Assembly: GCF_012184425.1 (NCBI RefSeq)
Contig: NZ_VTOW01000002.1
Location: 1,054,001 to 1,118,000 of the forward strand
Source of the DNA: Candidatus Manganitrophus noduliformans
GTDB lineage: Bacteria > Nitrospirota > Nitrospiria > SBBL01 > Manganitrophaceae
Length of the DNA: 64,000 nucleotides
Direction of reading: 5' to 3'
The position numbers and the translations under genes were made by a program. Positions 48,398 to 58,100 of the stretch are shown piece after piece. Positions within the stretch are counted from its first letter, which is position 1. The number at the start of each line of letters is the position of its first letter. The notes beneath the pieces were generated by a model, which worked only from the letters and a program-made list of their open reading frames with translations, ran no database searches and had not been told where the DNA came from.

Positions 48398-49460
48398 CAC
48401 GAATCCCTTTATGAAGAAGGTAGAGAAAAAAGGGAACGCCGACCAGCGAAGTAATCGTCCCCAAGCGAAGCTCCTCCGGCGAGATCACAACCCGCGCCAA
48501 GAGATCGGCGCCGACCAGGAAGACGCCTCCCGCTAAGAATGAGGCCGGTAGCAAGATCCGGTGATCGGGACCGATGATCAGCCGAACGACATGCGGAATG
48601 ATGAGGCCGACGAACGCGATCGTCCCGGTGAAAGCGACCGCCGCGCCGGTCACAAGCGAGGAGAGCAGCAGCAGGAAGCGCTGGACCGATTTGACCCGCA
48701 TCCCAAGCGCCGCCGCCCCCTCTTCCCCCTCCAAGGCAAGGAGGTTCAGATCGCGCGCGAAGAAGAGAAGGCCCGCGCTCCCCAGCAGGATCGGAACAAA
48801 CGCCACCTTCAGATGAATCCACCCCCGCGCGTCGAGGCCCCCCATCAACCAAAAGAGGATCTCGCCGACCACGGCGACCGAGGTGAGCCTCGAAAGGATC
48901 AGGGACATCATCGACACCATGAAGATCCCGACCGCCATCCCGGAGAGGAGAAAGGTGGTCACCGGCGTCTTCCCGTCCCGTGTCGCAATCCGGTAGACCA
49001 GGAGAACCGTGCCGAAGGCGCCGGCGAAGGCGAAGGCCGGCAGGATGAGATGATGATGAAAAGCGAGTCCCGACCCCAGCGCAATCACCGCGCCGAGGGC
49101 CGCCCCGCCGGAGAGGCCGATGACCCCCGGATCGGCCATCGGGTTGCGGAAGAGCCCCTGCATCGCCGCCCCCGAAACCGCCAGCCCCCCGCCGATCAAT
49201 GCGGCCAAGAGAACACGCGGAAGCCGGACGGTGAGGATGATGATTTCCTGTGACGCCTCCCACCCCGCGAGATGGATGAAAGGGAGTTGATTCAGTATCA
49301 ATCGAGCAACCACCGGAAGCGGTACCGCCACCGATCCGACCGCCGTCGCCACGACGATCATTCCGGCCAGCAGAAGAAGGAGCATGGAGAGCAAGCCGGC
49401 CTTCGGCCAGAAGGAGGGGAGCGTGCACCGCAGGGGAAGGGTCAACGGAGACGGCCTCAT
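48384..49460 (-). CDS. btuC: Cobalamin ABC transporter permease
   Basis: The 358-residue protein has about ten hydrophobic spans and FecCD/BtuC family landmarks: LRLPRVLLAALIGGGLAVSGAAMQGLFRNPMADPGVIGLSGGA, cited in outline, and AFTGTIAFVGLIIPHVVRLIIGPDHR. It forms the inner-membrane path with BtuD. The ATG overlaps the btuF stop (ATGA, 49457-49460). The longer frame to 49505 lies inside btuF and is not used. Confidence 0.92.
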   Translation of the reverse strand: MRPSPLTLPLRCTLPSFWPKAGLLSMLLLLLAGMIVVATAVGSVAVPLPVVARLILNQLPFIHLAGWEASQEIIILTVRLPRVLLAALIGGGLAVSGAAMQGLFRNPMADPGVIGLSGGAALGAVIALGSGLAFHHHLILPAFAFAGAFGTVLLVYRIATRDGKTPVTTFLLSGMAVGIFMVSMMSLILSRLTSVAVVGEILFWLMGGLDARGWIHLKVAFVPILLGSAGLLFFARDLNLLALEGEEGAAALGMRVKSVQRFLLLLSSLVTGAAVAFTGTIAFVGLIIPHVVRLIIGPDHRILLPASFLAGGVFLVGADLLARVVISPEELRLGTITSLVGVPFFLYLLHKGIRDGGR

Positions 49461-50377
49461 CGGGATCGCGCCCCTTCTTTTCCCAGCGCCGCCGAATCGA
49501 ACCACTCCGGATGGATGATCCGCGTCATCTGCTCGATTCCATCGACAATGTAGTGGGAGACGGTCGAGAGATGTTTTTCCGGAATCGCGTAGACCCGCCG
49601 GTTGCGGACGGCGGAGAGATGCCCCAGCTCCGGATGGGCCATCAATTTTTCATAAAAATCGGGCTCCTCCGGGTTCCAGTCGCTCACGATCACGATCTCC
49701 GGATCGAGCTGAATCAACCGCTCGACCGACAACTTCTGGTGTCCCACCAACCCGACCTCCGCCGCTTGATTCCGCGCGCCAATCAACGCGGCGATCTCAT
49801 CGAAGGTGGTCTCTTTCCCGGCCACGACGCCGGTCGGGGTGTAGAAGAGGACCCGCGGTTTCCGCGGGGCGGCCGCCGCCCGCGCGGCGATCCGATCCAA
49901 ACGCCGATCCATCTCGGCGACAATCTCTTCCGCCCGCCGCGATTCGCCGACCACCCGGCCGACGGTCCGGATATTTTGTTTGATCCCCTCAATAGAAGAA
50001 AAGAGCTCCAGCTTGACCACCGGAAGCCGCGCTTCGGTCAACTGCTTTACGACATCCATCGAGGTGTAGGTCGCGACGAAGACCAGGTCGGGCTGCAACG
50101 CCACCACCTGTTCCATGTTCGCCCGGATTTTGTTCGGCACACCTTTCGCCGCTTCGGCCACATGGGAGATCCCCGGATCGGCCGCCAGATAGGTTACCGC
50201 CGCGATCCGCTTCGGATCGACCAGTGAGAAAAGGATCTCATCGGTACCGAGCGTCAGCGAGACGATCCGCTGCGGTTTCCTGGGGGGAACGGTCTCCTCT
50301 GCCGCAACCCCCGGTGAGTGATCGGCGAAAAGAAAAAAGAGCGCCAGAATCCAAAGGATGGGCCGGACGCTCCTCAT
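49457..50377 (-). CDS. btuF: Cobalamin-binding periplasmic protein
   Basis: The 306-residue protein has a signal peptide (ending SPGVAA) and the cluster A-II binding fold. KPQRIVSLTLGTDEILFSLVD and RIAAVTYLAADPGISHVAE form the first lobe, with QPDLVFVATYT, and IPEKHLSTVSHYIVDGIEQM near the end. It delivers corrinoids to BtuCD. Position among btuB, btuC, btuD and B12 enzymes makes corrinoid binding more likely than iron-siderophore. The ATG at 50377 overlaps the preceding stop by four bases. Confidence 0.9.
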   Translation of the reverse strand: MRSVRPILWILALFFLFADHSPGVAAEETVPPRKPQRIVSLTLGTDEILFSLVDPKRIAAVTYLAADPGISHVAEAAKGVPNKIRANMEQVVALQPDLVFVATYTSMDVVKQLTEARLPVVKLELFSSIEGIKQNIRTVGRVVGESRRAEEIVAEMDRRLDRIAARAAAAPRKPRVLFYTPTGVVAGKETTFDEIAALIGARNQAAEVGLVGHQKLSVERLIQLDPEIVIVSDWNPEEPDFYEKLMAHPELGHLSAVRNRRVYAIPEKHLSTVSHYIVDGIEQMTRIIHPEWFDSAALGKEGARSR

Positions 50378-51054
50378 CGGACCGCCTCCGCCGCCGGTAA
50401 GAGATCGGCGAAGACAAACCCGTCCCGCGTGACGACCTCACCGACCGTGACGGAGATTGGATGGCGGAACATCGGCCCCGCGACCGCAAAGCTATGAAAT
50501 TCTCCTCGCTCCCCGCACGGATCGACCTCTTTCGGGAGGTCATCCAGAAAGGATGCGTTGAACGTTCGCCCGGCGAAGGTCGGCGCCAGATGCCGCGGAT
50601 CGATGCAGGTGATGACGGCAGACAGACCGCCGGCGATCATCTCTTGGGCAAGCCGGTCTGTCGGGATCTGCCAGAGGGGGAAGAGCGGTGTGATCCCGGT
50701 GCCGGAAAGCTGCTGCTCCCGGTACGCCCGGATGTCTTCGAGGAAGAGATCTCCGAAAGCCATCTGCGTCACCCCCTCTTGCTTCGCTTCTTCAATGAGC
50801 CGGCGCATCGCCGCTTCATACGCCTCGTTGCTGCAAGGAGAAGGGATCGGCACGACGTGAAGCGGAACCCCCGCCGCCTCGGCCTGCGCTTGCAACAAGC
50901 TCAACCGGACCGCGTGCATCGCCACCCGTTGATGTCGCTCATTCACCGTCGTGACCAACCCGGTCACCTCGATATCGGGCTCCTGCCTAAGACGATAGAG
51001 CGACCAGGCGCTGTCTTTGCCGCTGCTCCAGGAAAGCCAGGTTTTTTTCTTCAT
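50374..51054 (-). CDS. DUF71/COG2102 ATP-binding protein of the B12 operon
   Basis: The 226-residue protein has an adenine nucleotide alpha-hydrolase fold with the P-loop-like SWSSGKDSAWSLYRL. GVTQMAFGDLFLEDIRAYRE and CGERGEFHSFAVAGPMF are typical of diphthine-ammonia-ligase-like proteins. Bacteria do not make diphthamide. Comparative genomics has predicted that bacterial DUF71 proteins function in B12 salvage, and this one lies within such an operon, between the adenosyltransferase and btuF. The exact reaction, probably an ATP-dependent amidation or ligation, is not known. Confidence 0.85.
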   Translation of the reverse strand: MKKKTWLSWSSGKDSAWSLYRLRQEPDIEVTGLVTTVNERHQRVAMHAVRLSLLQAQAEAAGVPLHVVPIPSPCSNEAYEAAMRRLIEEAKQEGVTQMAFGDLFLEDIRAYREQQLSGTGITPLFPLWQIPTDRLAQEMIAGGLSAVITCIDPRHLAPTFAGRTFNASFLDDLPKEVDPCGERGEFHSFAVAGPMFRHPISVTVGEVVTRDGFVFADLLPAAEAVR

Positions 51055-51072
51055 ATAAATTTCCTTTTTCGC

Positions 51073-51636
51073 TCACGCCCGGCTGTCCCACAACAGATCG
51101 GCGATCCCCCGCTTTTTGTTCTCATACCGCGCCATGACGAAGAGAGCGTCGGAGAGGCGATTGAGATACGGGACCGTGAAGGGGCCGACCGGCTCCGCCC
51201 GCCGGAGGGCGATCACTTCCCGCTCCGCCCGGCGGCAGACCGTCCGGGCGACATGAAGCTGCGCCGCGCCGGGCGCGCCGCCCGGAAGAACGAAATTCTC
51301 AAGCGGGGTGAGCGCTTCCGAAAGACGGTCCATCAACTGCTCAAGGGCGTCGATGTGGCGCTGCTCGATCTTCGGCACGTTCATCTTCACCTTATCTTCC
51401 TCCGGAATGCAGAGGTCGGAGCCGAGGTGGAAGAGATCGTTCTGGATCCCGGACAAGGCTTTCATCAATACCGTGTCGAGCCCCGCCGCCATGGCGACGC
51501 CGATGTGGGAATTGAGCTCGTCGACCGTGCCATACGATGAAATCCGCGCGGAGTCCTTCGGAACCCGCCGCTTGCTGCCGAGCCCAGTGCTTCCATCATC
51601 TCCGGTTCGCGTATAGACTTTTGTGATCCGCGGCAT
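51073..51636 (-). CDS. PduO-type cob(I)alamin adenosyltransferase
   Basis: The 187-residue protein has the PduO/ATR signature [14 protein letters not shown] and [26 protein letters not shown] and [17 protein letters not shown] follow in the C-terminal part. It transfers the adenosyl group of ATP to cob(I)alamin or cobinamide to make the active coenzyme. The start ATG at 51636 lies seven bases after AAGGAG; TTG 51639 is less likely. It is 18 bp upstream of the DUF71 gene. An 83-bp inverted repeat separates it from cobS, so it may be expressed from the long operon or on its own. Confidence 0.93.
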
Positions 51637-51675
51637 CAATGAACTCCTTTCATCATTCCTTGAAAAGCTCTCTGT

Positions 51676-51758
51676 CCGTCATTCCCGAAATGTTTAATCG
51701 GGAATCCAGTTTATTTAAATCAATGGCTTCTGGATTCCCGCTTTCGCGGGAATGACGG
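51676..51758. repeat. 83-bp inverted repeat (CCGTCATTCCCG family)
   Basis: CCGTCATTCCCG with CGGGAATCCAG on the left mirrors CTGGATTCCCG with CGGGAATGACGG on the right, each side also having its own small hairpin. Palindromes with this core are found in intergenic DNA of many bacteria. Here it sits between cobS and the adenosyltransferase gene, inside the B12 operon. Confidence 0.8.
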
Positions 51759-51763
51759 CTAAT

Positions 51764-52495
51764 CTAAACTGCGCTGATGAAGAGGAGCACCCCCACTTCC
51801 ACCATCTCGGAGAGCGCCCCCAGCGTATCCCCCGTCCAGCCGCCGATCCTTGATTCCAGAAACCGATTGAACAGCCAGACCGACAAAAAGACGAGCGATG
51901 CTGCGATCAATCCGATTCCCTTTGAGATCAGAAAAGTGCCTGCAAGGGTGATCACGGTCGCGCCGGCGCAAGGGAGCCAGTGGATCTGTCCGATGAACGG
52001 CTGCGCCGTTCCGCTCTCTCGGGCATACCTCCCGATAAAACTCGCCAGGACCATCGCCCATCGGCTGAGAAGCCCCATGAGGAGGAAAGCGCTCAGCCAC
52101 CCCCGACGGATCATCTCACCAAAGAGAGCATATTTCAAGATCAAGACCACCCCCAATCCGATGACGCCGAACGCGCCGATATGTGGGTCCTTCATCACCG
52201 AGAGAATTCGCTCTCGGCCCCCGCCCGCGGCCAGGCCGTCGCAGAGGTCGGCCAATCCATCGAGATGGAGTCCCCCGGTCAAAAGGGCCAAGGCCAGCAG
52301 GAGGAGCGCCGCCAATGGCGCCGGAGCCAGAACCGGTTCGAGCAGACGGACCATCCCCAGCAAAAAAGCGCCGATCGCCAATCCCACCACCGGGAAGAAG
52401 AGGACGGAGCGACCGAGGTCGCGCTCGGTGGCGATCATTGAATGATGGCATGGGACGATGGTGAGGGTGCCGATCGCGGTGAAGAAGCTTCTCAT
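51764..52495 (-). CDS. cobS: Adenosylcobinamide-GDP ribazoletransferase
   Basis: The 243-residue membrane protein has the CobS pattern: [14 protein letters not shown] at the N-terminus and [22 protein letters not shown] with the conserved acidic residues. [19 protein letters not shown] follows. It joins alpha-ribazole to adenosylcobinamide-GDP to form cobalamin. Its ATG overlaps the cobT stop by four bases. About six hydrophobic spans are visible. Confidence 0.94.
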
Positions 52496-53556
52496 CGTTC
52501 CCGCTCCGGACTGGAGACGCCCGCCTCATCAAAAGTCGCCATCTCGGTGAGAATGCGGACGGCGCTCTCCACCAGGCCCATTCCCAATGCCGCGCCGCTC
52601 CCTTCACCCAACCGCATGTTGAGATCCAAGAGCGGATCGAGCCCCAGTTTGTCCAATGCGATCCGGTGGCCCGACTCCGCCGAGCGATGGGCGGCGACTA
52701 AATATTCCTTAACCTCCGGTGCAAGCGCCACCGCGACTAAGGCTGCGGCGGTTGATATAAATCCATCAACCACAACCGGAATCCGGTGCGCCGCCGCCCC
52801 GAGGAGAAGACCGACGATCCCGGCAATCTCATACCCGCCGACCTTGGCCAGCACGTCGATCGGATCGTCCGGATTCGGCCGATTGACCCGGAGTGCATCC
52901 TGAATAACGGTCCGCTTCAAACGGAGGGTCGGCTCGTCGATTCCCGTTCCCCGTCCGGTCACCGCTTCCACCGGCGAGCCGGTCAAGAGCGCCGTGACGG
53001 CGCTGCTGGGGGTGGTGTTGCCGATCCCCATCTCGCCGGTCCCCAAGAGATTCGTGCCGCGGCGGGCCTCTTCTTCCGCCAGTTCGCATCCGACGGCGAT
53101 CGCCGACAGCGCCTGTCTGCGCGACATAGCGCGCCCGAGTCTCATGTTCCGGGTTCCCCGATCGATCTTTCGATCGATCAATCCCGGCAATTTCCCGAAG
53201 GGGTGGTCGACCCCCATGTCGATCACACGGACGTCGGCCCCCGCCTGCCTCGCGAGGACGCAGATTGCCGCTCCCCCGTGAAGGAAGTTGTAAACCATCT
53301 GAGCCGTGACCGCCTGGGGATAGACGCTGACCTTCTCCTCCACCACCCCGTGATCGCCGGCGAAGACGCAAATGACTTTCTTCAACGGCGGTGAAGGAAT
53401 CTTTCCGGTCACCTGGATATACCAGGTTGCCAACTCCTCCAACCGGCCGAGGCTGCCGGGGGGCTTTGTTAGACTGTTGAGACGCTTCTGAGCAAGAATG
53501 CGTCCCGATTCTTCCAACGGTTTAATCCGGCCGATGACCAACTGCAACCTTTTCAT
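52492..53556 (-). CDS. cobT: Nicotinate-nucleotide-dimethylbenzimidazole phosphoribosyltransferase
   Basis: The 354-residue protein has the CobT signatures [32 protein letters not shown] and [14 protein letters not shown]. The GEGSGAALG near the C-terminus has the catalytic Glu. It makes alpha-ribazole phosphate from dimethylbenzimidazole and NaMN, preparing the lower ligand of B12. ATG 53556 has AAAGGA upstream; GTG 53559 is adjacent. It overlaps the cobU 3' end by 35 bases and cobS by four. Confidence 0.95.
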
Positions 53557-54106
53557 CACGCTTCCTTTTAATCGGGACGGCGATTCCCGCCATCATCCAG
53601 TAAACCTCATCGGCCTCGGCGGCCCACCGCTGGTGGAGAAGGCCGGAGAGATCCCGGAAGAGCCGGGAGAGGGAATGATCGGTGGGGACCACTCCCAATC
53701 CGACCTCGTTCGATACGGCAACGATCGAGAGATTGACCGATCGGGCCACGCTGACCAACCGGTCGATCTCGCTCAGAATCTTCTCCTCATCTTCCCCCAC
53801 CGTCGTCAAGAGGTTGGAAAGCCAAAGGGTAAGGCAGTCGATGACCGCCACACCTTTTCCTTGCATTGACTGGAGCAGATCGGCAAGATGTATCGGCTCC
53901 TCCATTGTCTTCCAAACCTCCGGCCGATCGCGACGATGCCGCTCGATCCGCCGCGCCATCTCCGCATCGGACGGTCGCGCCGTGGCGATGAAGATCTTCT
54001 CCTCACCCAAGGTTTCCCCTCGCTCCAATGCAAACCGGCTCTTGCCGGAGCGCGCGCCGCCGAGGATGAGGATCAGACGACTTTTGCTGAGATCTTTTCG
54101 CTCCAT
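53522..54106 (-). CDS. cobU: Adenosylcobinamide kinase/guanylyltransferase
   Basis: The 194-residue protein begins with a P-loop, [14 protein letters not shown], and has the active-site [18 protein letters not shown] with the guanylylated His. [13 protein letters not shown] and [13 protein letters not shown] follow. It phosphorylates adenosylcobinamide and attaches GMP. It lies immediately after btuB with no gap and overlaps cobT by 35 bases, so translation of this block is coupled. Confidence 0.95.
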
Positions 54107-54107
54107 G

Positions 54108-55967
54108 CTAGAATGTTACCTTTACGCCGCCATAGCCGGAGAACCCCGCCGTCCCATAGCCGGTCACCTCTTCGTACTCCCGATCAAAGAGGTTCTCGAC
54201 TCGTGCAAAGAGCGCAACGTTCCGGTGGAGGGCGTAAGTCCCGGAGAGGTCGACGACGGTGTAGTCGTCCATTTCAACATTGCCTACGTCAAATCGCTTC
54301 CCAACATAGCGGACCTGGAGAACCAAACGAAGGGGATTGGCCGGTTGGATGGAGAGGCTTCCACTCGCCTGATGACGGGGTCGCCGTACCAGCTCGTCCC
54401 CTGTCCCTTCATCCTTTGTATTCATAAAGGTGTAGCTTGCCGAAAGGGCGGCCTGTTCCAATGGTCTCGCCGAGACCTCGAATTCCCACCCGGTGATCTT
54501 CGCCCTCGCCACATTCTCCGGTCTTCCCACAAAGGTATCCGGGTTAAAAACAAAGACGATCAGGTCTTCAATCCGATTCTGGAAATAGGTTACACCCACC
54601 TGCACTTGCTCGCTCCAGAGCGACTGTTCGACCCCCGCTTCAAAACTCTCGCTCTTCTCCGGTTCAAGATTGGGATTGCCAAAATTAGGAAAGAAGAGAT
54701 CATTAAGCGTCGGACCGTGAAATCCGGTTCCGTACGCCGCTCGAAGCTTTGTGGCCGTCGACTCCATGAGATAAGCGGTCTCGACTTTGTAAGTCGTTTC
54801 GCCTCCATATCGGTTATTGCCGTCATAACGGAGACCGAAGTTCAAAATAAAAGGCAACTGGCGAAGTTGATAGAAACCATAACCGGCATGATTGACCGTG
54901 GTTTCGTCAACGCCATCGCCAAACTTGCCGTTCTGCGACTCATACTCGTAGCCGACGGTCAAGAGGTTGCGGCGGCCGAGGCGGAGGTCATGCCGCCAAT
55001 CCAACCATTTTCTTGAGGTGTCGATTTCAGAACCATCGAATGTTGTATCATCCTCGTTGAAGCCGACCCTCAGATGCTGATCCCATTCCTCAATGACGGC
55101 GGTCTTCATGCCGAGCGTAGTGACCCATTGCCGATGATCCAGGACCAGATTCCGAACGTCGACCGGGCAGAAAAAAGTGTCCGGATCACAACCGTCCAGC
55201 TCGCTCTCCGAGTTGGTATAACGCCCCGTCCATTCAAGCCGCGTCTTCTCTGAAAGATCGGTCCCTAGCCGCGCGGAAAAAGCAGTATTCTCATATCCGT
55301 CGTCCTCGCGATTTCCAGCGAGTTCATTCGCCCGGGAGAATCCTCGGGTGTCAAACCGCGACGCCGAGAGGGAGTAATCGACCCGCTCTGTTGACCCGTT
55401 TAACCCCGCCGCCTCCCGAAAAGTACGATACGCTCCTGCCTCCAGCGAGAGAAAGCCTGACGGAGGGCCCTCTCCTTTTTTTGTAAAGATCTGAATGACC
55501 CCGCCGAGGGCGTCCGATCCGTATAGTGTACTCTGCGGACCGCGGATCACCTCAATCCGTTCGATATTCTCCACGGTAAGATCCGCAAAATCGAACGCAC
55601 CCGTGGTGGGGCTATTGACCGGAACGCCATCGATCAGGACAAGCGTATGATTGGACTCCGTTCCGCGCAAAAACACCGAGCTTGTCGCTCCTGGCCCGCC
55701 CTGCTGTACCACCGTCAGACCCGGCACTTCACGCAGTGCTTCCTCGACGGTGGTGAGATGTTTCTCTTCGATCGTCTTTTCGTCGATGAGGGTAACGGAA
55801 GCGGCGGTCTCTTTCAACGGAACCTCCGTTTGGGTGGCCGTGACAAAAACCGGCGGAAAGGTGGGAATCTCTTCAGGGGATGTTTCTTCTGCGCCGGATA
55901 CATTGGTGGTGACTGCAATCAGAACGAGAAATGAGCAAAACGCAATACGCCATTGGAACGGGGTCAT
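54108..55967 (-). CDS. btuB: TonB-dependent cobalamin receptor
   Basis: The 619-residue protein has a signal peptide, a TonB box region (PPVFVTATQTEVPL) and a plug with ALREVPGLTVVQQGG and RIEVIRGPQSTLYGSDALGGVIQIFT. It ends in a barrel closing with GYGGVKVTF. BtuB imports corrinoids across the outer membrane. It is the first gene after tandem cobalamin riboswitches, and the whole operon downstream is for B12 use, which makes the substrate assignment strong. The ATG at 55967 has GGGAGAGG upstream. Confidence 0.93.
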   Translation of the reverse strand: MTPFQWRIAFCSFLVLIAVTTNVSGAEETSPEEIPTFPPVFVTATQTEVPLKETAASVTLIDEKTIEEKHLTTVEEALREVPGLTVVQQGGPGATSSVFLRGTESNHTLVLIDGVPVNSPTTGAFDFADLTVENIERIEVIRGPQSTLYGSDALGGVIQIFTKKGEGPPSGFLSLEAGAYRTFREAAGLNGSTERVDYSLSASRFDTRGFSRANELAGNREDDGYENTAFSARLGTDLSEKTRLEWTGRYTNSESELDGCDPDTFFCPVDVRNLVLDHRQWVTTLGMKTAVIEEWDQHLRVGFNEDDTTFDGSEIDTSRKWLDWRHDLRLGRRNLLTVGYEYESQNGKFGDGVDETTVNHAGYGFYQLRQLPFILNFGLRYDGNNRYGGETTYKVETAYLMESTATKLRAAYGTGFHGPTLNDLFFPNFGNPNLEPEKSESFEAGVEQSLWSEQVQVGVTYFQNRIEDLIVFVFNPDTFVGRPENVARAKITGWEFEVSARPLEQAALSASYTFMNTKDEGTGDELVRRPRHQASGSLSIQPANPLRLVLQVRYVGKRFDVGNVEMDDYTVVDLSGTYALHRNVALFARVENLFDREYEEVTGYGTAGFSGYGGVKVTF

Positions 55968-55999
55968 CTATCCTCTCCCTTCGAAAGGTAAAATGTGAT

Positions 56000-56215
56000 C
56001 CTGAAAGGCCCGGTCTCCTGGCTGAGGGCAACCTACTCCCACGCCTTCCCAGGGAGGAAATCGTTACTCGTTATTAGTTAAACGTTAAGCGTAAAAGAAT
56101 TTACGATTCACGATTCACGAATAACGAAACCCCAGTGGCCGTTGTGGTTTCGTTCCCGTCACAGTTGCGGGGCAGCAGCGGTTTTGCACCGCTTTCCCGA
56201 TCAACCCTTCAGGTT
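56000..56215 (-). promoter_or_regulatory. Cobalamin riboswitch 2 (proximal to btuB)
   Basis: On the minus strand the P1 halves CCTGAAGG and CCTTTCAGG enclose GCGGTGCAAAACCGC, GCTGCCCCGCAACTGT and GGCGTGGGAGTAGG. The B12 box AGCCAGGAGACC follows. These are the conserved blocks of the AdoCbl/Cbl riboswitch. It ends about 30 nt before the btuB start codon and close to its ribosome site, with no clear terminator, which suggests control of translation initiation. Confidence 0.9.
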
Positions 56216-56235
56216 ATTTGATTTAAATTCTGTCC

Positions 56236-56271
56236 AAAAAAAATCCCCGCCTTTCGAATGGAAAGGAGGGG
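56236..56271 (-). terminator. Intrinsic terminator between the two riboswitches
   Basis: On the minus strand CCCCTCCTTTC pairs with GAAAGGCGGGG (one mismatch) around CATTC, followed by eight consecutive T. It lies after riboswitch 1 and before riboswitch 2, so it can act as the transcription-off arm of the first. Confidence 0.88.
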
Positions 56272-56331
56272 ATGGAATGAGTCCGCCCCCCGTCTTGACC
56301 ATCGAAGACAGGCAGTGCTTTCCATTCAGGC

Positions 56332-56503
56332 AGGTCTTCTGGCTCTGGGACGATCTTACTCCCGACCCCTTCCCCCCCGGATATTTTATACGGAGAGTGG
56401 TGTTGGTCGGTTTCGCGTCCCATAACAGCGGCGGGTCCGCTCCCGATTTACACGGGATTCCCTTTTCAATCCCGACATGACGTCGGGATCACCTGAACGG
56501 GTT
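56332..56503 (-). promoter_or_regulatory. Cobalamin riboswitch 1 (distal)
   Basis: On the minus strand TTCAGG and CCTGAA form the outer stem. The core has GATTGAAAAGGGAATCCCG, GACCCGCCGCTGTTA, GGGGTCGGGAGTAAG and the B12 box AGCCAGAAGACCTGCC. The first 15-20 nt of the transcript lead straight into it. A strong terminator follows at 56236-56271. Confidence 0.92.
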
Positions 56504-56520
56504 CTTTATCGAACGGGTAA

Positions 56521-56549
56521 TCTATACCAGGGGGGCGGAACGAAATCAA
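56521..56549 (-). promoter_or_regulatory. Predicted promoter of the B12 regulon
   Basis: On the minus strand TTGATT (56544-56549) and TATAGA (56521-56526) are 17 bp apart. Transcription would start near 56514, just before riboswitch 1. Confidence 0.6.
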
Positions 56550-56569: not shown

Positions 56570-57019
56570 TTAGTCGTGGACGGAGAGGACAAATTCCTGA
56601 TTAATATAGACAACGAATTCCGGCTGGATGAGGGTGAAAAAACGGACCGGCTGATTCAGATAATCCTTCATCCGGCAGAATCCTTCGGGAAGGTTGACAA
56701 AAACATCCCCCTCGATCTCATTGCCCCGGATCATCTTCAAAGAGACGGAATTCTTTTTTCCCAACGTCATGAGGTCGTCTTTTTCCAGCTGCGCCGGGAC
56801 CTTCGCCACGACGATATGAGACCGATTGATCAGGAGGGTTCCCCCTTTCGTCCTCACGGGGATGAACTTTTTCTCCTCGTGCAAAAGATCCCCGACCTTT
56901 TGAAGCCCCGCATGGTGCGCCTCATAGAGCCGGAGAAAAACTTCCCCTTCGACCTCGCTCCCGTCGGAGAGTTCGAACAAAACCGGACGGTTCTCTTTTT
57001 CGATCTTTCGCTCATCCAC
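56570..57019 (-). CDS. DUF6812-type protein coupled to pilT
   Basis: The 149-residue protein has two similar halves: EVEGEVFLRLYEAHHAGLQK with FIPVRTKGGTLLINRSHIV, then EIEGDVFVNLPEGFCRMKDYLN with FFTLIQPEFVVYINQE. This matches the DUF6812 pattern as I recall it. A GTG at 57019 lies ten bases after AAGGAG and overlaps the pilT stop, which suggests coupled translation; the longer frame to 57103 is inside pilT. Pairing with a PilT ATPase suggests a role in type IV pilus function, but this is only inference. Confidence 0.65.
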   Translation of the reverse strand: MDERKIEKENRPVLFELSDGSEVEGEVFLRLYEAHHAGLQKVGDLLHEEKKFIPVRTKGGTLLINRSHIVVAKVPAQLEKDDLMTLGKKNSVSLKMIRGNEIEGDVFVNLPEGFCRMKDYLNQPVRFFTLIQPEFVVYINQEFVLSVHD

Positions 57020-58100
57020 GGGGTGCCGCTCCTTGAGGGGCCGCTCCCTGCCCCGACAAAGGGAAGAGGGCTTTGTTCGTGGCAAATTTATGCGCCTCTT
57101 CAATCGATACCTTCTTCGAGGCCACCAGCGCCTGGAGGGCCTGATCCATCAGCTGCATCCCTTCGGCCTTTCCGGTCTGGATGACCGATGGGATCTGGAA
57201 CGTCTTTGCTTCCCGGATCAGGTTGGAGGTGGCGGTGTTCACGAGCAAAATCTCCAGCGCCGCGCATCGCTTGCCGTCGACCGTCTTCAAAAGATTTTGA
57301 GCGACCACCCCTTTGAGCGATTCCGCCAACATCGCCCGGATCTGCTCCTGCTGGTTGGTCGGAAAGACGTTGATGATCCGGTCGACCGTCTTGGCTGCGC
57401 TGCTCGTATGCAGCGTTCCGAAGACGAGGTGGCCGGTCTCGGCCGCCGTAATCGCCAGCTCGATCGTCTCCAGGTCGCGCATCTCCCCGACGAGGATAAT
57501 ATCCGGATCTTCCCGAAGGGCCGCTTTCAGCGCGGCGGCAAACGATTTTGTATCGCGTCCGACCTCCCGCTGATTGATCAGACACCCCTGGCTGGTATGG
57601 ACGAACTCGATCGGATCTTCCACCGTGAGGATATGCTCTTTTTTGGTCCGATTGATATAGTCGATGATCGCCGCGAGAGTCGTCGACTTTCCGCTTCCGG
57701 TCGCGCCGGTCACCAAGACCAGCCCTTTCTTGAATTGGGCGAATTTTAAAACGGTGGCGGGAAGCCCCAGCTGCTCGACTGTCAAGATTTGGGTGGGAAT
57801 CATCCGGAAGACGGCGCTCATCCCGAGCCGGCCCAGGAAAATATTGGCCCGGAAGCGGGCCTGCAACTCCGGAACTTCGTAGGCGAAATCGATATCGTGC
57901 GTCGTTTCGAACTTCTCTTTATGGAGATCGCTCATGATTTCATAGAGAAGTTTCTGGTTTCCTTCATGTGTCAGTTTCTCGGGTGTGACCGGAACCAAGT
58001 CTCCCGCCGCCCGCATCATCGGGGGATTCTGCGGCGAGAGATGTAGATCAGACCCTTTTTTCTCTCTTAACGCTTTAAAGAGGACGTCGATTTGAGGCAT
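57012..58100 (-). CDS. pilT: PilT/PilU-type twitching-motility ATPase
   Basis: The 362-residue protein has the PilT set: KGSDLHLSPQNPP, the P-loop GATGSGKSTTLAAIIDYIN, the Asp box ILTVEDPIEFVH, and the AIRAMLAESLKGVVAQNLL-type motif (here beginning QIRAML), with the Walker B strand DPDIILVGEMRDLETIELA. It powers pilus retraction. The motif order and tail resemble PilU as much as PilT. The start has no strong ribosome site by eye. No other pil genes are in the window; its partner is the DUF6812 protein. Confidence 0.9.
   Translation of the reverse strand: MPQIDVLFKALREKKGSDLHLSPQNPPMMRAAGDLVPVTPEKLTHEGNQKLLYEIMSDLHKEKFETTHDIDFAYEVPELQARFRANIFLGRLGMSAVFRMIPTQILTVEQLGLPATVLKFAQFKKGLVLVTGATGSGKSTTLAAIIDYINRTKKEHILTVEDPIEFVHTSQGCLINQREVGRDTKSFAAALKAALREDPDIILVGEMRDLETIELAITAAETGHLVFGTLHTSSAAKTVDRIINVFPTNQQEQIRAMLAESLKGVVAQNLLKTVDGKRCAALEILLVNTATSNLIREAKTFQIPSVIQTGKAEGMQLMDQALQALVASKKVSIEEAHKFATNKALFPLSGQGAAPQGAAPRG

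Follow-up and report, generated by a model that had tools for sequence, protein, structure and literature searches.

Two cobalamin riboswitches of different lineages precede btuB in Candidatus Manganitrophus noduliformans and are predicted to act on transcription and on translation

Introduction

Multi-aptamer leaders make up less than 1% of the UTRs that carry riboswitches of the AdoCbl class (Barrick and Breaker 2007, PMC2258182), and this agrees with a statement in the preliminary description of the DNA analysed here, that most cobalamin riboswitches are single. According to the main text of a survey of tandem riboswitches (Sherlock et al. 2022, PMC9481103), 26 AdoCbl doublets were found and classed as pseudo-cooperative. 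Bi-mechanism tandems were defined there from the SAM-II/SAM-V arrangement, and the authors did not sort all tandems by mechanism. In this arrangement, as that text presents it, the first switch has an intrinsic terminator, the second acts on ribosome access, and both read one ligand; SAM-II doublets of the same terminator-then-ribosome-access design also exist (PMC9481103).

The locus described here resembles each of these systems in part, as far as they are portrayed in the main text of the survey. Like the AdoCbl doublets, it places two cobalamin riboswitches with an expression platform apiece in front of a single gene; those doublets, however, were classed as pseudo-cooperative and not as bi-mechanism, whereas here a translational mode is predicted for the second switch and the copies belong to separate lineages. 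With the SAM-II/SAM-V tandem it shares the predicted order of mechanisms and probably the single ligand, but two aptamer classes for SAM are used there and one class (RF00174) here. The tandem TPP riboswitches of Bacillus anthracis tenA likewise are two same-ligand switches in a row, yet both are described as using transcription termination (PMC12121620, PMC9481103). A same-class cobalamin tandem with two mechanisms does not appear in the main text of PMC9481103, to which the comparison was confined, and some of the 26 AdoCbl doublets may be of the transcription-then-translation type. AdoCbl doublets and bi-mechanism tandems each being known from that text, the novelty would lie in their combination and is modest; further new points are the separate ancestry of the copies, their recurrence in relatives and the uneven presence of an antiterminator. 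A literature search on Manganitrophus and riboswitches found only a guanidine riboswitch screen.

We propose that the btuB leader is a homotypic bi-mechanism tandem, in which two OFF-type cobalamin riboswitches serve one promoter, and we put the probability of this reading at about 0.78. It would provide a natural, conserved example of an mRNA that probably reads one ligand twice, through two mechanisms and with members of two lineages, not with the products of copying.

Results and discussion

Two aptamers in the btuB leader

The window, that is, the whole stretch of 64,000 nucleotides analysed, contains the following genes and elements.

54108..55967, minus strand: btuB, TonB-dependent outer-membrane receptor, 619 aa (Pfam PF00593, 8.1e-48; PF07715, 4e-33)
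49457..54106, minus strand: rest of the B12 operon, namely cobU, cobT, cobS, ATP:cob(I)alamin adenosyltransferase, Diphthami_syn_2 ATPase and BtuF-like binding protein (Pfam)
56312..56511, minus strand: cobalamin riboswitch aptamer 1, terminator-type lineage (RF00174, 110.1 bits, E 1.1e-26)
55991..56223, minus strand: cobalamin riboswitch aptamer 2, Shine-Dalgarno-type lineage (RF00174, 90.2 bits, E 5.3e-21)
56056..56129, minus strand: palindromic repeat of about 73 nt in the terminal loop of aptamer 2, between GCCACTG and GGGAAGG (insert position in the RF00174 alignment)

Two cobalamin riboswitches on the minus strand had been recognized in the preliminary description, and the search with RF00174 that was proposed there bears this out: both copies, and not a single one, score above the gathering score of 31.5 bits, and both matches span the full model (1-189). 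The span assigned to the pair, 55997-56549, was nearly right, except that the match of aptamer 2 reaches 55991 and that 56549 is the first base of a -35-like box. The aptamers are arranged head-to-tail 5' of btuB, and the genomic setting fits membership in RF00174, as both precede B12 genes (TonB receptor, CobU, CobT, CobS, adenosyltransferase); the reading frames of the operon lie on the same strand and adjoin or overlap. Aptamer 1 shares 95% identity with its counterpart in G003, a member of the genus. No other match occurs in the window, and the genome (22 contigs, 5.17 Mb) has four, the remaining two lying 5' of an aminotransferase-family gene (terminator type) and of an OprB-family porin (Shine-Dalgarno type).

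Drawn from a shared family, the two aptamers would be expected to bind the same ligand. They could instead sense different ligands (e.g. AdoCbl versus MeCbl or other corrinoids) and form a two-input gate, for which one may cite their origin from separate lineages, their identity of about 70%, and the differing corrinoid selectivity of cobalamin riboswitches (PMC9600662). RF00174 is nevertheless the best family within its Rfam clan for both, and no specificity-determining change was identified, which makes such a gate improbable.

The 73-nt repeat in aptamer 2 is dispersed, with 8 more partial matches in the genome at 72-86% identity. The corresponding loop has no insert in G001, G003 and G005, and G002 and G004 carry a different insert in the same loop; this peripheral terminal loop looks like a tolerated insertion site.

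One conserved predicted promoter upstream of both aptamers

56521..56549, minus strand: predicted promoter, TTGATT (56549-56544), 17 nt, TATAGA (56526-56521), with extended -10 TG (conservation)

The predicted promoter occurs once in the genome. Its form TTGATT-17-TATAGA/TATACA with the extended TG is found in all six members of the genus, and G009 and G014, from another family of the order, have TTGATT-17-TAGAAG/TATAAG with TG, the -35 element and the spacing being as in the genus. The conserved promoter is located only upstream of aptamer 1. A second promoter between the copies, starting an mRNA with aptamer 2 only, would uncouple the two switches into separate transcripts; the linker is AT-rich, and weak promoter-like matches are present in some species, e.g. 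7 of 12 hexamer positions plus TG in G009. But in the window only 12 nt lie between the T-run and the aptamer 2 match, and this short linker differs between species, contains extra repeat-like sequence in G001 and G004, and yields best scores of 5-8, with no conserved candidate in the genus and order loci compared; conservation of the upstream promoter, by contrast, extends to all eight of these loci. We therefore rejected a linker promoter as a candidate and consider separate transcripts very unlikely.

Terminator and candidate antiterminator of the first switch

56318..56327, minus strand: P1 3' strand GAATGGAAAG, candidate antiterminator, perfectly complementary to CTTTCCATTC (56265-56256) of the terminator; repeat I8
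56292..56309, minus strand: P13-like hairpin GTCTTCGATGGTCAAGAC between aptamer 1 and the terminator, found after terminator-type aptamers of the genus and the order
56236..56273, minus strand: intrinsic terminator, hairpin ATCCCCTCCTTTC-CATTC-GAAAGGCGGGGAT followed by a T8 run (-18.5 kcal/mol, z -4.3)

The first copy had been described as followed by a strong terminator with eight T residues, and the energetics are in keeping with this: none of 200 shuffled sequences was as stable as the stem (56273-56243), which runs into the T8 run at 56243-56236. Each of the nine tandems analysed in detail has a terminator 3' of copy 1. A simple consensus scan of the window for terminators and promoters picked up neither element, the terminator being missed because of a mismatch in its stem. 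P13-like hairpins lie 3' of both aptamers; the one formed by GTCTTCGATGGTCAAGAC is weak when taken alone (z -1.8), and the name P13/L13 is given by analogy.

In folds that exclude tertiary contacts and co-transcriptional kinetics, the probability of the window terminator was 0.00 with the P1 strand free and 0.64 with the strand held, as when ligand locks P1, and none of 300 shuffled P1 strands lowered it as far. Holding the strand raised the terminator probability in the same direction in G001, G002, G003, G004 and G009; G003 behaved like the window, the fraction of equally effective shuffled strands was clear in G004 (0.007), and it was borderline in G001, G002 and G009 (0.05-0.10). The antiterminator also forms in G005, yet the terminator barely recovers there with the strand held (0.00 to 0.06). 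No antiterminator effect was predicted in G014, whose terminator probability was 1.00 in both states, and in G020 the effect of the P1 strand was predicted to run in the opposite direction. According to these models, the window and two relatives have a convincing classical antiterminator, four relatives a partial one and two none, so that the design is uneven among relatives.

The hairpin over the Shine-Dalgarno sequence

55972..55988, minus strand: hairpin CCTTTC-GAAGG-GAGAGG burying the Shine-Dalgarno sequence, candidate P13 of switch 2 (z -3.2)
55972..55979, minus strand: btuB Shine-Dalgarno sequence GGGAGAGG, 4 nt before the ATG at 55967

That the second copy ends near the btuB ribosome site was a further claim of the earlier reading, and indeed only 23 nt separate the 3' end of aptamer 2 from the ATG, with the hairpin between them; no terminator was seen directly 3' of this aptamer. 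Over nine distinct versions of the hairpin from the class, 51 of 54 cells were paired; shuffling the columns gave a mean of 44, and 0 of 10,000 shuffles were as good. The nine sequences are related, which makes the shuffle control generous, and their register was fixed manually. Both-sided, compensatory changes, e.g. from U-A to C-G, occur in five of the six pairs.

The same region is involved in an inverted repeat (I3), in which 55971-55988 and 56250-56267 are complementary over 18 nt at 89%. It could be imagined that the 5' arm and loop of the first terminator pair with the btuB Shine-Dalgarno sequence and silence readthrough RNA directly. This complementarity is, however, lost in G004, G009 and G014, by inspection of the leaders, and both segments are partly self-complementary CCTTTC/GAAAGG strings; such cross-talk was rejected as not conserved, and we find it hardly credible.

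Conservation of the tandem in relatives

A comparison with related genomes, suggested earlier as a check, was run with a tandem defined as two cobalamin riboswitches within 300 nt. Nine of the 58 genomes searched contain one: all six of the genus, G009 and G014, and G020 from another family of the class. A further tandem, in G189 (Nitrospira-family; family f6, which holds most of the class), was among the matches listed in a scan of the phylum. In every tandem of these genomes a terminator-type switch precedes a Shine-Dalgarno-type one, an order that is partly forced, because a Shine-Dalgarno switch must adjoin its gene. The genes behind the tandems encode TonB receptors in G009, G014 and G189 and an OprB porin in G020. 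In two other genomes of the phylum, the matches listed also included two cobalamin riboswitches on the same strand, separated by about 1 kb (L118, G213:C1:523677-525357; L119, G216:C67:35082-36324).

One layer might nonetheless do all the work, with the terminator switch exerting all control and aptamer 2 being a decaying relic, or the reverse. Aptamer 2 carries the 73-nt repeat and scores lower (90.2 versus 110.1 bits), and in G013 and G017, of the same order, a btuB-like gene stands behind a single terminator-type switch, so one layer can suffice; these loci share with ours the terminator-type aptamer before the btuB-like gene, but have no second aptamer and only one layer. Against decay, the cores of both copies have stayed intact throughout the genus and in a second family of the order, second copies from different families share 81-83% identity, the insert sits in a peripheral loop, and the Shine-Dalgarno hairpin has undergone compensatory change. 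Control by one layer is accordingly an unlikely account. Direct comparison of the one-switch (G013, G017) with the two-switch (genus, G009, G014) btuB-like genes would make the benefit of the translational layer measurable.

Proposed action of the two switches

The earlier proposal of transcriptional control by the first switch and translational control by the second, from a single promoter, is supported as a prediction by the terminator, the Shine-Dalgarno hairpin, the sole conserved promoter and the conservation of the arrangement. As in a bi-mechanism tandem, two complete riboswitches stand in one 5' leader (one predicted promoter, 88 nt spacing). The first expression platform is an intrinsic terminator, with a mutually exclusive antiterminator predicted in the window, and the second, the Shine-Dalgarno hairpin with its compensatory changes, would control ribosome access, its ligand dependence being a prediction.

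With little adenosylcobalamin (or another corrinoid) present, P1 of aptamer 1 would leave its 3' strand free to pair with the terminator (GAATGGAAAG with CTTTCCATTC), and RNA polymerase would read through; the mRNA so made would lack a stabilized hairpin over the btuB Shine-Dalgarno sequence, and btuB would be translated. When corrinoid is plentiful, aptamer 1 would hold P1, the terminator would form, and the whole btuB-cobUTS operon would be turned off, while in mRNAs already made aptamer 2 would stabilize the Shine-Dalgarno hairpin and stop BtuB synthesis. The first layer could thus reach all genes of the operon, and the second btuB and any genes translationally coupled to it. Ligand binding, the direction of switching, the operation of both layers in the cell and the shape of the dose-response are what we infer from these elements.

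Separate ancestry of the two copies

The two aptamers of the window are about 70% identical to each other, whereas the identity of each copy to the corresponding copy of the other family is 80-83%. In a tree of 63 aptamers, built with the expression platforms left out of the alignment, aptamer 1 falls in a clade of terminator-type aptamers (support 98-100), where first copies group with those of other operons, and aptamer 2 among translation-type aptamers, in a clade with support of 90-96 where second copies group with Shine-Dalgarno-type ones; the finer branching is uncertain, because the alignment has just 163 usable columns. Constraining the genus copies to group together was rejected (AU p 1.4e-5), and with the identities above this disposes of local duplication of one riboswitch in the genus. 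The same constraint was rejected for the G189 pair (p 8e-11). It was not rejected for the G020 pair (p 0.24), and for this reason G020 is not counted as an independent assembly.

Platform type changes only twice on the tree over 58 labelled aptamers, five without a clear platform having been left out; the labels were assigned by hand, since an automatic rule mislabelled several (GAGGATG taken as Shine-Dalgarno plus start) and gave six changes. Each copy therefore keeps the mechanism of its lineage. The separate lineages, the rejected constraint and the two platform changes together indicate that two riboswitch lineages already in existence were most likely combined in the btuB tandem, and the G189 tandem most likely arose separately in the same way, as judged from these sequence comparisons. 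We incline, by a small measure, to the broader view that two long-separated lineages, one acting by termination and the other by Shine-Dalgarno masking, were joined more than once within the class, giving tandems with the same order of transcriptional and translational control in front of different outer-membrane genes, so that tandems can arise by recruitment of a mechanistically different relative and not by duplication. The tree also suggests that aptamer and type of expression platform are passed on together over long spans; this would make aptamer phylogeny an aid in predicting mechanism.

Neighbouring genes and a related porin locus

At another locus (L043, 1545-4331; G000:C8:75044-75220), the cobalamin riboswitch is single and of the Shine-Dalgarno type, and the genes behind it encode an OprB-family porin and a YNCE-like beta-propeller protein, possibly an outer-membrane uptake system for B12 or cobalt; the gene behind the tandem of G020 is of the same family as this porin.

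BtuB of the window is just 68-71% identical to that of the five other genus members, and neighbouring proteins are more alike (PilT up to 97.5% and CobU up to 91% identity to G003 or G005). BtuB of the other members also splits into groups. Fast change of the window BtuB, or its replacement by recombination, is possible.

Within the B12 operon, the Diphthami_syn_2-family ATPase gene (50374-51054) lies between the adenosyltransferase and BtuF-like genes. Upstream of the leader, at 56570-57103, there is a gene with a DUF6812 domain, whose listed frame and the 3' end of a pilT-like gene overlap.
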